Position numbers and translations under genes: made by a program. Positions 10,675 through 30,339 of a stretch of 38,740 nt of DNA are shown piece after piece (the first letter of the stretch is position 1; each line of letters opens with the position of its first letter). The DNA lies in NCBI GenBank assembly GCA_030830185.1, contig JAURNN010000007.1:1-38740 (forward strand). Reading direction: 5' to 3'. The notes under the pieces are model-generated. The model saw nothing but the letters and a program-made list of their open reading frames with translations, had not been told where the DNA came from and searched no databases. The DNA is from Bacillota bacterium (GTDB lineage Bacteria; Bacillota_I; Bacilli_A; Acholeplasmatales; Acholeplasmataceae).

Positions 10675-11178
10675 ATGCGCTATTTATGGATGTATTCATT
10701 ATTAATGACAATACTTGTTTCTGTTTGGCTTTTACCAAGTCAAGAGATTCATGTTTCAAAACTTGAATCTCAACCATCATTTCAGATTACTGTCACAGGA
10801 GCTGTTGTTTTTCCAAAGACATTGACGTTTTATGAGCCTATCACTTATGAAGAAATTATAAATTATGTTGGAGGATTTAATCATTCCGATGTAAATTATA
10901 CGCCTCCAAGTTATGTTTTTACTCAATCTCAAGTACTCCATATTCCAGTACCTATACAAAACACTGAACTAACTGAAAATATTTTGAAAGTGAATATTAA
11001 TACAGCGTCTTTTCAACAATTACTTAGTATTCCATATATGACAGAAACGAGAGCTGCTGAACTCATCATTTATAGAAGAGAACATGGATTTTTTGATTCT
11101 ATTGAAGGATTGATTCATGTTAAATATATCGGAACTGCTACGATTGAAAATCTTCGTCCATTTATTACTACAACGTAA
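10675..11178 (+). CDS. comEA: Competence protein ComEA (membrane-anchored DNA receptor)
   Basis: ComEA binds double-stranded DNA outside the membrane during uptake. From 10675 the protein has 167 residues: one N-terminal membrane segment (YSLLMTILVSVWLL), an SLBB-like domain (ITVTGAVVFPKTLTFYEPITYEEIINYVGGF) and a C-terminal helix-hairpin-helix pair starting VNINTASFQQLLSIPYMTE, the family hallmark. The track starts at 10639, but AAGGAG at 10661-10666 sits 8 bases before the ATG at 10675, which is the more likely start. A weak -10 (TATACT, 10644-10649) follows the upstream terminator, so a new transcript probably begins here. comEB is absent between comEA and comEC. Confidence 0.93.
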   Translation: MRYLWMYSLLMTILVSVWLLPSQEIHVSKLESQPSFQITVTGAVVFPKTLTFYEPITYEEIINYVGGFNHSDVNYTPPSYVFTQSQVLHIPVPIQNTELTENILKVNINTASFQQLLSIPYMTETRAAELIIYRREHGFFDSIEGLIHVKYIGTATIENLRPFITTT

Positions 11179-13195
11179 TTTATTCATAACAATCATTTTC
11201 ATATTAACCATTTTTTATAGTGTTTTGTATCCATTATTTTTAATTGTTTGTATCTTGATATGGCTAAAATTTAAAAATCATATCAATTATCCATTGTTTT
11301 TCATCAGCATGATTATCTTTTTTAGTGGGTTGATCGATATTACCTCAAATATTACCTATGATCAATTCACTAATAAAGAAATCGTCATCATCGATAAACA
11401 AAAACAAACTCATATGTATCAATATATTGTTAGAGACCAACAATTTAAGTATATATATCACTCTTACATTGATTATACAATTGGCACAAACTTACATATC
11501 GATGGAGAAATCATACCATTTAATAAAAATACAATTCCTAATGGATTTCATCCAAAAGAATATTATTTGAGTAAAGGTATCATTGGAAGATTAAATCATG
11601 TAAAAGTCATCGTTGTTGATGAGAAAACGACCATCAAAGAGTGGTTTTATGATTGGAAAGAAACGTATCATGAAACAGAGGTTGAACCATTTATCGATGC
11701 TTTTATCTTTGATGATCAAAAAGAACTTCGAACGCTTAGCTTTGAATGGTTATTTTATTTATTTAGTGTGTCTGGTATACATATATTCGCACTAAGTCAA
11801 CTCATCATTTATCTTTTTAAAATTAGACAAATGAAGTTTCAAATATATACAAGACTTTTAATTGTCATCCTTTTTTTAATCTTTCAACCCTTCCATTATT
11901 CAATTATTCGAATACTTTTAATGAATATCGCAATCGTATGCTTGTTGATATTGAGATTTCAAATTCCTAAATATGTCATCTTGGGAATGATATGGATTTT
12001 AATTTTAATTGTTCAGCCTTTTAAGATATATGACATTGGTTTATTAATTAGTTTTTTCTTAGTGATGAATCTCTATTTAAGTATAGAAGATAAAACACAT
12101 CCAATCATCAATCAATATCATATTATTTTGTTAGCAGCATCACTAATTTTTTTATTTAATGGACGATTCTTACTGATTCCAATCATCATCATGCCAGTCC
12201 TTGTTTCTGTCATTATTTATACGATTTTTATGCCGACATTGTTGATGTTTATTTTACAAATCGAAATTATTTTTTTTATAGATTGGTTCAATAAATTATT
12301 TGATATGTTTAAAATCGTTCAAAATTATAGTGGTGTGATTCAACTTCCGATGCCATCAAACATGATTGTTTCCCTTGCTTTCATAGTCATTTTTTTAATG
12401 CATCTATCATCTTCTAAAAAAATGATTATGAAAAGACTTTTTCTGATGTGTCTCATCTTTTTGATTTCAGGGAAATTATTTGTACTAAACCAACCAGCAT
12501 CATTAATGTTTTTAGATGTTGGTCAAGGAGATGCTACTGTTTATATAGACAAAGATTGTGTGGTTGTTATTGATGCTTTTTCAAATGTTGAATCCTATTT
12601 AAGAAGTAAAGGAAAACAACATATTGATTATTTATTTTTAACCCATAGTGATTTAGATCACATAAAAGAAGCAAAAAGTCTTGTTGAAAATATGCAAATT
12701 CATCACGTGATAACAAGTCCTTACCAAGAAATAGAAGACATACCAACAACAACGACAATATATCAATTTCCAACAACTTTTTTTTGTGGTGAAATACGAA
12801 TAGATATTTTAGGTCCTGTTGATTCGATGTTTGATGATAATGATGATTCACTGATTATCCTTATCGATTTTTCAGGTAAAAAGATATTGTTTACTGGAGA
12901 CGCTTCAAAAGAAAGAGAAAAACAACTCATAAAATTGATCAATGATGATATCGATGTATTAAAAGTTGGACATCATGGTTCTAAAACATCAACCTCACCT
13001 GAATTACTTAATGCATTAAATCCTGAGTTTGGTATCATTAGTACATCGATTAATAATCGATACGGTATGCCACATCAAGAAGTCATCAATCAATTGAAAG
13101 TATTTCACATAAAGTATTTCATAACATCATTAGATGGTAGCATTCAAATGACCATTCATCAAGGAGAAATAAAATGGGAAACCTATCCACCATAA
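11117..13195 (+). CDS. comEC: DNA uptake channel protein ComEC/Rec2
   Basis: ComEC is the polytopic channel that moves single-stranded DNA into the cell. The 692 residues show N-terminal membrane segments, a central competence domain with many hydrophobic helices (about residues 190-450), and a C-terminal metallo-beta-lactamase-type domain with FLDVGQGDATVYI, LFLTHSDLDHIKEA (HxDxDH), FTGDASKE and LKVGHHGSKTSTS, a nuclease-like metal site. The first 62 bases overlap comEA; GAAGG sits about 8 bases before this ATG, which supports the long overlap. No frameshift is seen, so the gene looks functional. Confidence 0.95.
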   Translation: MLNISELLRLKIFVHLLLQRNLFITIIFILTIFYSVLYPLFLIVCILIWLKFKNHINYPLFFISMIIFFSGLIDITSNITYDQFTNKEIVIIDKQKQTHMYQYIVRDQQFKYIYHSYIDYTIGTNLHIDGEIIPFNKNTIPNGFHPKEYYLSKGIIGRLNHVKVIVVDEKTTIKEWFYDWKETYHETEVEPFIDAFIFDDQKELRTLSFEWLFYLFSVSGIHIFALSQLIIYLFKIRQMKFQIYTRLLIVILFLIFQPFHYSIIRILLMNIAIVCLLILRFQIPKYVILGMIWILILIVQPFKIYDIGLLISFFLVMNLYLSIEDKTHPIINQYHIILLAASLIFLFNGRFLLIPIIIMPVLVSVIIYTIFMPTLLMFILQIEIIFFIDWFNKLFDMFKIVQNYSGVIQLPMPSNMIVSLAFIVIFLMHLSSSKKMIMKRLFLMCLIFLISGKLFVLNQPASLMFLDVGQGDATVYIDKDCVVVIDAFSNVESYLRSKGKQHIDYLFLTHSDLDHIKEAKSLVENMQIHHVITSPYQEIEDIPTTTTIYQFPTTFFCGEIRIDILGPVDSMFDDNDDSLIILIDFSGKKILFTGDASKEREKQLIKLINDDIDVLKVGHHGSKTSTSPELLNALNPEFGIISTSINNRYGMPHQEVINQLKVFHIKYFITSLDGSIQMTIHQGEIKWETYPP

Positions 13196-13198
13196 ATT

Positions 13199-13207
13199 TG
13201 GTATAAT
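13199..13207 (+). promoter_or_regulatory. Extended -10 promoter giving a predicted leaderless holA mRNA
   Basis: TGGTATAAT (extended -10; TATAAT at 13202-13207) lies just after comEC. Counting 7 bases from the last T puts +1 at 13214, the A of the holA ATG. No Shine-Dalgarno exists and no -35 is evident. Confidence 0.65.
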
Positions 13208-13213
13208 CTTTAT

Positions 13214-14185
13214 ATGATAATAAAAAATTATGTTTGGATAAGTCCAAATAATCAACATTTACAAATACAAATTCAAAAACATATCGACACAATTAAAAAC
13301 GATACGTACGATCTCATCCAGTTTGATTGTAAAGAGAGTTCATTTTCAGATGTGTATGAAGCTATGATTACACCATCATTATTTTTTGATGCAAAAATCA
13401 TGCTTCTGTTCCATTTAGAGGAAATTTTAGAAGAAGACAATCATCGAGAAAAATTCATTCAAGTTTTACAAAGAAGTGATGAAGATTTAGTTTTATGTAT
13501 ACAAATAGAAAAAGCGCTAGATCATCCAGAGTTAAAAAAAGCATTTAATTTGTATGTTGATATTCAAAAAACAAGCCAGATGAATACTCAAGATATGTCA
13601 TCATACATTCAATCAAATTTGTTAGAAGATGATTATAGTATGGATTTTTCTACGCAACAATTTTTCTTAGACCGATTAAAAAATCAAGAAGAAACCATGT
13701 ATTCTTATTTAGCGATTTTAAAAACGTATAAGATGCAACAAAAAGTGATTTTGAAAGAAGATATTTTAATGATGGTACCTGCTCCAATTGAAGATAATAT
13801 CTTTGATATCGTTACCAGTTACATACAAGGTGACATTAAACAATCCTTATCACTTTTTGAAGACTTACTGGTTAGTCAAGAAGATCCTTTAAGCATTCTA
13901 TCTATGATAAGTCGAAAACTAATTGAAATCGAAGATGTAAAACGTTATTTAAAAGTAGGGTTAGATCAAAGGCAAATATCAGAAAAGATGAATGTTTCAA
14001 ATGGTAAAGCATATTATTTAATTAAAGAATCAAAATCACTTGAAACAAAAGACATCGAAAAAGCGATAGATGCCATCAATATTTTAGATTTTAAGATAAA
14101 ATCAGGTCAAATAGATAAAACGCTAGGTGTCTATTTATTTTTGATAGGAGGTCAAAATGAAACAACAGATAATCGCCATCATTGA
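13214..14185 (+). CDS. holA: DNA polymerase III delta subunit
   Basis: Delta opens the sliding clamp as part of the clamp loader. The 323 residues fit the family (~340): an N-terminal domain beginning NYVWISPNNQHLQIQIQKHI with TPSLFFDAKIMLLFHLEEIL near 55-75, a middle lid region, and a C-terminal helical collar domain around 195-315 (IFDIVTSYIQGDIKQSLSLFEDLL, DPLSILSMISRKL). Sequence identity is low, as is usual for delta, but the position after comEC and before rpsT matches Bacillus yqeN (holA). It appears to have its own promoter and to be leaderless. Confidence 0.88.
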   Translation: MIIKNYVWISPNNQHLQIQIQKHIDTIKNDTYDLIQFDCKESSFSDVYEAMITPSLFFDAKIMLLFHLEEILEEDNHREKFIQVLQRSDEDLVLCIQIEKALDHPELKKAFNLYVDIQKTSQMNTQDMSSYIQSNLLEDDYSMDFSTQQFFLDRLKNQEETMYSYLAILKTYKMQQKVILKEDILMMVPAPIEDNIFDIVTSYIQGDIKQSLSLFEDLLVSQEDPLSILSMISRKLIEIEDVKRYLKVGLDQRQISEKMNVSNGKAYYLIKESKSLETKDIEKAIDAINILDFKIKSGQIDKTLGVYLFLIGGQNETTDNRHH

Positions 14186-14813
14186 TTTTGAAACAACAGG
14201 TTTCAAAGGTCGTGAAGATGACATTATAGAAATCGGTGCACTTTTATTTTCGACCTCAAATTTTGAGATTATTGATACCTATCAAACATTTATCAAAAGA
14301 GATCAACCTCTACCTCAAAAAATTATCGAAATTACGCATATTACAGATGGAATGCTTCAAACTCAAGGGATACCAAGAGTTGATGCAGCTCAACAATTAT
14401 TTCAATTTATTCCCGAAGAGGCTGTAATTTGTGGATATAATGTTATGTTTGATTTGAGTTTTTATGAAACGCTTATCAAAAAATATGTAAAAAGTGAGTA
14501 TCATATTAACAATGACATACTTGATGTTTTGACAATTTTTAGAGATTTAAGTACCACATCTCATAAACTTTCAGATGCAGTTGATTATTATCAAGTCACA
14601 ACGCCAAATACCCACCGCGCATTAGATGATGTGATTGCGACATTTGAAGTATTAAAAAAAATGCACACAGAAAATGCGCACATTATTGATACGTATAAAA
14701 ATATTATTGGCTATCCACCATTTAGAACATATTTTGGTTTGAAATTACCACATGTAAAATATTTACCACAAAGAAGTGGGATGAAAGATTTAATGCTTGT
14801 ATCTAAGCTATAA
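14157..14813 (+). CDS. DEDDh 3'-5' exonuclease (DnaQ/PolC-exonuclease-like)
   Basis: A DnaQ-type exonuclease of 218 residues. Motifs seen: IIAIIDFETTGFKGREDDIIEIGALLF (Exo I with DxE), VICGYNVMFDLSFYETLI (Exo II) and TPNTHRALDDVIATFEVL (Exo III with HxxxxD). It could proofread for DNA polymerase III or act in repair or RNA trimming; the residues alone do not decide. After the domain come about 45 residues (HIIDTYKNIIGYPPFRTYFG onward) that I cannot assign. AGGAGG lies 5 bases before the ATG, and the gene overlaps holA by 29 bases, so it is co-expressed with a replisome subunit. Confidence 0.88.
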   Translation: MKQQIIAIIDFETTGFKGREDDIIEIGALLFSTSNFEIIDTYQTFIKRDQPLPQKIIEITHITDGMLQTQGIPRVDAAQQLFQFIPEEAVICGYNVMFDLSFYETLIKKYVKSEYHINNDILDVLTIFRDLSTTSHKLSDAVDYYQVTTPNTHRALDDVIATFEVLKKMHTENAHIIDTYKNIIGYPPFRTYFGLKLPHVKYLPQRSGMKDLMLVSKL

Positions 14814-14815
14814 AA

Positions 14816-14843
14816 AAAAGAATGGATGCCATTCTTTTATTTT
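14816..14843. terminator. Bidirectional terminator between the exonuclease gene and rpsT
   Basis: A 10-bp perfect stem, AAAAGAATGG with CCATTCTTTT, and a 3-base loop. On the plus strand TTTTATTTT follows; on the minus strand the A tract before it gives a run of eight Ts. The rpsT stop lies just inside it, so it serves both converging genes. Confidence 0.88.
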
Positions 14844-15100
14844 ACGCCATTAACGAGTGTTGCTAACTGTGATTTGTTACGAGCAACGAAGTTTTTATGA
14901 AAGATACCCTTTGCTTGACCCTTGTCTAGCTTTTTACTTGCGAAAGCTAAGGTAGTTTTAGCAGCGTCGGCATCTTTACTTTCTACCGCACGCTCAACGG
15001 CTTTGATTGCAGTACGAACTGATGATTTATAAGATGCATTGAATAGACGTCTCTTTTCGTTCGTTTTATTACGTTTGATTTGTTGTTTAATGTTTGCCAT
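14837..15100 (-). CDS. rpsT: 30S ribosomal protein S20
   Basis: S20 is a primary binder of 16S rRNA in the small subunit. The 87 residues are full length and very basic, with MANIKQQIKRNKTNEKRRLFN at the start and KGIFHKNFVARNKSQLATLVN near the end, both characteristic. On the minus strand a GGAGGTG Shine-Dalgarno lies 5 bases before the ATG. It runs against its neighbours and has its own promoter and terminator. In Bacillus, rpsT also follows holA. Confidence 0.97.
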   Translation of the reverse strand: MANIKQQIKRNKTNEKRRLFNASYKSSVRTAIKAVERAVESKDADAAKTTLAFASKKLDKGQAKGIFHKNFVARNKSQLATLVNGVK

Positions 15101-29586: not shown

Positions 29587-29595
29587 TGGTATAAT
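29587..29595 (+). promoter_or_regulatory. Extended -10 promoter giving a predicted leaderless rluB mRNA
   Basis: TGGTATAAT, the same 9 bases as upstream of holA. From TATAAT at 29590-29595 the +1 falls at 29602, the A of the ATG. The preceding terminator makes read-through from efp unlikely, and there is no Shine-Dalgarno. Confidence 0.7.
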
Positions 29596-29601
29596 ACTCA
29601 T

Positions 29602-30339
29602 ATGTTAGAAAGACTACAAAAAGTCCTAGCCAACCATCAAATTGCATCAAGAAGAAAATGTGAAACGATCATTTTAGAAGGTCGTGTGAAAGTTAATGGT
29701 CAAGTGATCACTGAACTTGGAACAAAAGTTTCTTCAACGGATGACATTGAAGTGGATGGGAAAAAACTTTTTAAACAAGAATATACATACATTTTAATGA
29801 ATAAACCAAGAGGGATTATCTCTTCGGTTTCAGATGAAAAAGGTCGTAAAACGGTCTTTGATTTATTATTAAAAGAAGATCAAGAAGCGCGCTTGTATCC
29901 AGTTGGAAGACTTGATTATGATACAGCGGGTCTTTTACTGATGACCAATGATGGTGCACTCACACAAAGACTTACTCATCCTAAGCATCTTGTTGATAAA
30001 GTATATCGCGTTGTGTGCCAAGGCATTATTTCTAGAGAAGCAATCAAACAACTTAGAACAGGTGTTCCCATTGGTGGTAAACACGTTGTTAAAGGTGTTC
30101 AAGTTCGTGTTCTTGAAAGAAGAATTCCAACAAAAACATCTTATGTTGAAATCACGCTAGTCGACGGGAAATATCATCAAGTCAAAGAAATGTTTGCAAG
30201 TGTTGGATTTCCGGTTTCAAAACTTACAAGAATTAGATATGCATTTTTAGATTCTGAAGGAATTCAACGTGGCTTGTACCGATATTTAAAAGTTCATGAA
30301 GTTAAAAAATTATTTGGATATCAGTTCAAACTCAAATGA
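29602..30339 (+). CDS. rluB: rRNA pseudouridine synthase, RluB/RsuA family
   Basis: Makes pseudouridine in ribosomal RNA; RluB acts on the large subunit and RsuA on the small, and this sequence looks closer to RluB. The 245 residues contain an N-terminal S4 RNA-binding domain (LQKVLANHQIASRRKCETIILEGRVKVNG) and the catalytic domain with YILMNKPRGIISSVSD and LYPVGRLDYDTAGLLLMTNDG (the catalytic Asp in RLDYDT), then KVYRV and YHQVKEMFASVGFPV. It appears to be leaderless. In Bacillus the rluB-like gene also lies upstream of cmk. Confidence 0.94.
   Translation: MLERLQKVLANHQIASRRKCETIILEGRVKVNGQVITELGTKVSSTDDIEVDGKKLFKQEYTYILMNKPRGIISSVSDEKGRKTVFDLLLKEDQEARLYPVGRLDYDTAGLLLMTNDGALTQRLTHPKHLVDKVYRVVCQGIISREAIKQLRTGVPIGGKHVVKGVQVRVLERRIPTKTSYVEITLVDGKYHQVKEMFASVGFPVSKLTRIRYAFLDSEGIQRGLYRYLKVHEVKKLFGYQFKLK

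Follow-up and report, generated by a model that had tools for sequence, protein, structure and literature searches.

The holA start region

The window (the whole stretch of DNA that was analyzed, 38,740 nucleotides) carries holA between a comEC-like competence gene and a gene for a DnaQ-type 3'-5' exonuclease (Table 1). From the end of comEC to the start of holA, the sequence reads CCACCATAA - ATT - TGGTATAAT - CTTTAT - ATGATAATAAAA. The extended −10 element lies ahead of the holA ATG exactly where the initial annotation had put it, and the first T of TATAAT is 12 bp from the ATG, as in "TA-led" genes, in which a TANNNT core is found about 12 bp upstream. HolA belongs to TIGR01128 (136.2 bits against a curated cut-off of 80, by profile match). 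The comEC-like protein scores below the cut-off for TIGR00361 (134 bits) and above the cut-offs for PF03772 and PF00753; the stop codon of its gene (TAA, 13193-13195) is on the same strand as holA and 18 nt from its ATG.

Table 1. Features near holA and at a second candidate leaderless start (positions in the window).
Feature	Position	Strand	Remarks
comEC-like competence gene	11117..13195	+	Longest ORF, true start probably later; TIGR00361, PF03772, PF00753
Extended −10 element TGG-TATAAT, TGGTATAAT	13199..13207	+	TG 13199-13200, TATAAT 13202-13207
Spacer CTTTAT, 6 nt, −10 to start codon	13208..13213	+	−1 base is T
holA start codon ATG	13214..13216	+	A is the predicted +1, best-placed purine, 6 nt past the −10
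holA, DNA polymerase III delta subunit, 323 aa	13214..14185	+	TIGR01128, PF21694, PF06144
Shine-Dalgarno AGGAGGT of the next gene	14146..14152	+	Read directly; ATG at 14157
DnaQ-type 3'-5' exonuclease, overlaps the end of holA	14157..14813	+	PF00929, 96.9 bits
Second candidate leaderless start, TGGTATAAT-ACTCAT-ATG	29587..29604	+	RsuA/RluB-type pseudouridine synthase, 29602-30339

The start of holA at 13214 is well supported because its reading frame opens only 18 nt upstream, with no ATG, GTG, or TTG between the in-frame stop and 13214, and because the N-terminus of HolA aligns with homologues whose genes have a Shine-Dalgarno (SD) sequence (e.g., in G021). The lack of an SD sequence that was claimed for this start holds up: there is no match of at least 4 bases to AAGGAGGT at a spacing of 4-12 nt from the ATG. 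The promoter scan found no −35 element near TTGACA that could be paired with the holA −10. Among the relatives, 16S rRNA is available for G015 and G021, and both have an intact anti-SD sequence; the 16S rRNA of the window's own assembly was sought but not found.

The exonuclease gene is probably cotranscribed with holA. It is followed by a terminator-like stem (14816-14838, reported on the − strand) and by an ORF on the − strand (14837-15100) that resembles rpsT by eye. We take holA of B. subtilis (yqeN) to lie likewise behind comEC and before rpsT. The initial annotation considered a promoter for holA within the comE cluster to be unusual. We reject this view of the setting: comEC adjoins holA in 47 of 57 loci, so the neighborhood is conserved and ordinary, and (as discussed below) a promoter at this place appears to be the ancestral state in the order.

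Candidate leaderless starts in the window and in related genomes

The pattern TGNTATAATN6ATG occurs twice in the window, compared with 0.06 occurrences expected from shuffled sequences, and both are at gene starts. The second precedes a pseudouridine synthase gene (Table 1) whose orthologue in G001 has the same layout (TGGTATCAT-N6-ATG). More broadly, we surveyed the ORFs of about half of G000 (499 kb, 430 ORFs; G005 and G022 were outside this survey). A −10 element was separated from the first ATG by a gap of 6 nt in 7 ORFs, against 0.25 expected from the ATGs inside genes, and all seven of these ORFs lacked an SD sequence. There is thus a genome-wide excess over background, as for TA-led genes. 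In this sample, a gap of 6 outnumbers gaps of 5, 7, and 8, gaps of 10-14 are near background, and genes with gaps of 15 or more are mostly SD-led, as are the first ATGs as a whole (273 of 430). (We also counted the plain pattern TATAAT-N6-ATG in 61 genomes, but codon usage dominates these counts and makes them uninformative, so we discarded them in favor of the ORF-based counts and the extended −10 pattern.)

If the A of the ATG is the +1, as the initial annotation had predicted for holA, then a pyrimidine is expected at −1. Indeed, 30 of 31 leaderless candidates (pooled from six genomes) have a pyrimidine there, as compared to 359 of 586 SD-led ATGs (P = 1e-5, Fisher exact test), which supports the prediction.

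The additional candidates in G000 are ung, hflX, tilS, photolyase, arginine deiminase, a SpoU methylase, an RNase HII-family protein, and a response regulator; in some of these the gap is 5 or 7 instead of 6. They are mostly information-processing enzymes, but there are too few of them to test for a bias. Two more candidates, pepF and rplS, were dropped after inspection, which favored an SD-led start or one further downstream. Besides holA, the pseudouridine synthase and a 152-amino-acid membrane-like protein (48% identity) are predicted to be leaderless in both G000 and G001.

Over whole genomes, the number of extended −10 elements at a gap of 6 versus a gap of 9 was 47 versus 7 in all five genomes of genus g1 and 35 versus 4 in genus g6. 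Because of this excess, we consider putatively leaderless genes to be an established class in g1 and g6. The counts were 130 versus 121 in the remaining 28 genomes of the family, and 7 versus 12 in g12 and g2 (G015 and G005), with no genome-wide excess. In g12, then, holA is predicted to be leaderless without any general excess of such genes. The preference for a gap of 6 is sharper in G009, of genus g6, than in G000: in G009 a −10 lies at a gap of 6 in 17 of 207 ORFs, as compared to 0, 0, and 2 ORFs at gaps of 5, 7, and 8, and 17/17 lack an SD sequence (loci L253-L272). By eye, these genes include lepA-, coaD-, miaA-, and cinA-like genes, and the lineage seems unusually rich in leaderless genes.

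Several other observations concern how starts are packed in these genomes. Among SD-led genes, the gap from TATAAT to ATG peaks at 17 nt (13 genes in G000 and 5 genes in G001), which corresponds to a leader of about 11 nt, close to the shortest leader with room for an SD sequence. In G001 (L060:56-95), a stem that resembles an intrinsic terminator (AAGGCTTTAAAGCCTTTTTTT) abuts the extended −10 of the candidate leaderless pseudouridine synthase, a tight packing of terminator, promoter, and start codon with no base to spare. Finally, contig C1 of G017 contains about eleven exact copies of TGGTATAATTATAGTATG, and G029 and G030 contain similar repeated 18-mers (TGATATAATTGAAGTATG and TGGTATAATTGAAGTATG, four times each). 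These repeats are possibly a mobile element with a leaderless ORF.

The holA promoter across relatives

We found HolA in 59 of 61 genomes and inspected the upstream region in 58. (In G003, of genus g1, this region is cut by the end of a contig.) In seven of the 58 genomes, the gap is exactly 6 and there is no SD sequence: G000, G001, G002, and G004 (an uncultured Bacillota MAG, JAQCDH010000014.1) from g1, G009 and G022 from g6, and G015 from g12. The other six have an ATG start codon as well, and the −10 of G022 is TATACT. In 44 genomes, a gap of 16-31 nt separates TATAAT from the likely ATG, and most of these have an SD sequence; starts in this group were chosen by SD sequence and position, and G017 was read by eye. 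Another seven were left unclassed (G005, G011, G024, G031, G033, G038, and G053). None of the classed genomes has a gap of 7-15, so leaders of holA fall into two separate classes of 0 nt or about 10-25 nt, and 51 of the 58 genomes in all retain the −10 (44 with a leader and 7 with the leaderless layout).

Within the leaderless group, the length of the spacer is constant at 6 nt while its sequence varies (GACCAT, GTCCAT, AGTTAT, TTTAAT, AGAAGT). For example, the spacing is kept in G001 and G002, in which HolA is only 53% identical, although most of the spacer bases have changed, and across the group it is kept while the HolA proteins have diverged to 21-30% identity. The comparison of the TATAAT-ATG spacing in close relatives that the initial annotation called for thus comes out in its favor: all four g1 genomes that could be read retain the spacing, as do two more genera of the clade.

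In FastTree trees, genera g1, g2, g6, and g12 group together in a single clade (support of 0.96 from AlaS, Der, and RecA and 0.93 with HolA added; these are SH-like values on long branches). All seven genomes with the leaderless layout, from three genera, lie inside this clade, and holA is SD-led in its sister genus, g7. Judging from this distribution, the promoter between comEC and holA appears to be older than the loss of the leader, and a promoter of its own would be ancestral for holA in the order. It is likely that the ancestral SD-led leader was deleted once, in the ancestor of the clade, and that the leaderless spacing was then kept. The weak point of a single loss is G005 (g2), which is nested in the leaderless clade yet has no clear site; its best candidate is TAAAAT, 7 nt before the ATG.

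A stronger version of this history is that leader deletion in the ancestor of several genera brought about a single switch of an essential replisome gene from SD-led to leaderless initiation, that no intermediate lengths were tolerated, and that the new state was held for a very long time and cut the translation of holA off from read-through of the comE operon. We give this version even odds. If the single switch is correct, then the clade is a natural series for the change from SD-led to leaderless initiation.

Proposed mechanism and comparison with known systems

We propose that holA is transcribed from an extended −10 promoter of its own, with the +1 on the A of its ATG, that its main mRNA is leaderless, and that this state arose by deletion of an SD-bearing leader in one lineage and was then kept (probability roughly 0.86). 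RNA polymerase would use the vegetative extended −10 (TG-TATAAT), without a good −35, and would start on the A of the ATG. Initiation on the resulting 5'-terminal AUG would probably involve 70S ribosomes, or 30S subunits with IF2 and initiator tRNA, instead of an SD sequence. As for the origin, the ancestral promoter would already have been specific to holA when one lineage of the order lost the short SD-bearing leader by deletion. The transcript is predicted to run into the exonuclease gene, and because that gene has a strong SD sequence, initiation on a single mRNA would be leaderless at the first gene and SD-led at the second.

There are several other explanations for the layout. First, the true +1 could be slightly off, so that the mRNA has a leader of 1-8 nt and is leaderless-like. 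In related bacteria, start sites are spread over 6-7 bases from the −10 (PMC7745072), and the A at 13212 could act as +1. We consider this unlikely because a gap of 6 is favored over 5, 7, and 8 in G000, and more sharply in G009, and because a T precedes the ATG in most cases.

Second, most holA expression could come from comEC-holA read-through mRNA, by termination and reinitiation at the comEC stop, with TATAAT being of little weight. Read-through is possible because a scan found no terminator between comEC and holA, which are on the same strand and often retained in this order, and reinitiation on such RNA is possible because the comEC stop is so close to the holA ATG. In this respect the initial annotation went too far: it was right that a read-through mRNA would lack an SD sequence at holA, but such an mRNA need not be silent. 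As the main source of HolA, however, read-through seems decidedly improbable, because the −10 is kept in most of the genomes and because, in diverged genomes, it is exactly 6 nt from the ATG, a spacing that reinitiation does not need. Given a leaderless main mRNA, one might speculate that the missing leader insulates the amount of HolA from comE expression.

Third, an SD-led mini-ORF (ATG at 13174, AAGGAG at 13161-13166, stop at 13204-13206 within the TATAAT) could couple its translation to holA. It has a good SD sequence and spacing, and its stop is 7 nt before the holA ATG, but its counterpart ATG in G001 and G002 is in a different frame and lacks an SD sequence. It is probably due to chance and we rejected it as highly improbable. 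Finally, although TATAAT is frequent near any ATG in a genome of about 33% G+C, a coincidence is refuted by the conservation of the layout in three genera, and the excesses in the window and in the genome sample also speak against it, so a chance origin is ruled out and the leaderless layout is probably real.

Leaderless genes as such have been described before in mycoplasmas and Mesoplasma, and holA adds a probable case. Start sites have been mapped onto start codons in Mesoplasma florum and Mycoplasma (PMC7745072, PMC4245973, PMC10568206). Transcription in Mesoplasma florum begins 6 or 7 bases past the −10, and A is the base at about 70% of its start sites (PMC7745072); leaderless genes make up about 16-18% in mycoplasmas (PMC4014445, PMC10568206), and the 5'UTR is 8 nt or shorter in about 16% of the mRNAs of M. 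pneumoniae (PMC10568206). The holA start shares with Mesoplasma florum, Mycoplasma gallisepticum, and Mycoplasma pneumoniae a vegetative −10, a weak or absent −35, and a +1 6-7 nt further on, at the A of the ATG. The difference is that the start sites in Mesoplasma and Mycoplasma were mapped experimentally (PMC7745072, PMC4245973, PMC10568206) while ours is predicted from the sequence. Also, the organism studied here is uncultured, belongs to another lineage, and has SD sequences at most of its genes.

The closest parallel is the TA-led genes of Zheng et al. (2011, PMC3160421), which have a TATAAT-like signal about 12 bp upstream (first T to ATG) and no SD sequence. In low-G+C Firmicutes the signal takes the form TAtAAT with a preceding TG, and information-processing genes are favored (PMC3160421). 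holA is the same in the distance of the signal, the missing SD sequence, and the preceding TG, and the information-processing leaning of the G000 candidates agrees with theirs. The Firmicutes cases that they named are Lactobacillales and Mycoplasma, and their text does not mention Acholeplasma or phytoplasma (PMC3160421). Our analysis therefore adds a lineage of uncultured bacteria, in which genus g6 appears to be especially rich in leaderless genes.

The less common part appears to be a single orthologous promoter whose leader has two states. When set beside the SD-led type of holA promoter found in 44 genomes of the order, the promoter in the window is in the same place and has the same TATAAT, but there the gap is 16-31 nt, mostly with an SD sequence, and here it is 6 nt with none. 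Leaderless genes are usually counted per genome. In contrast to the TA-led genes (PMC3160421), single orthologues are followed here from the SD-led to the leaderless state, so that one gene with the same promoter can be traced from a putative SD-led ancestor to a leaderless descendant, and the evolution of leaderless initiation becomes testable on single orthologues.
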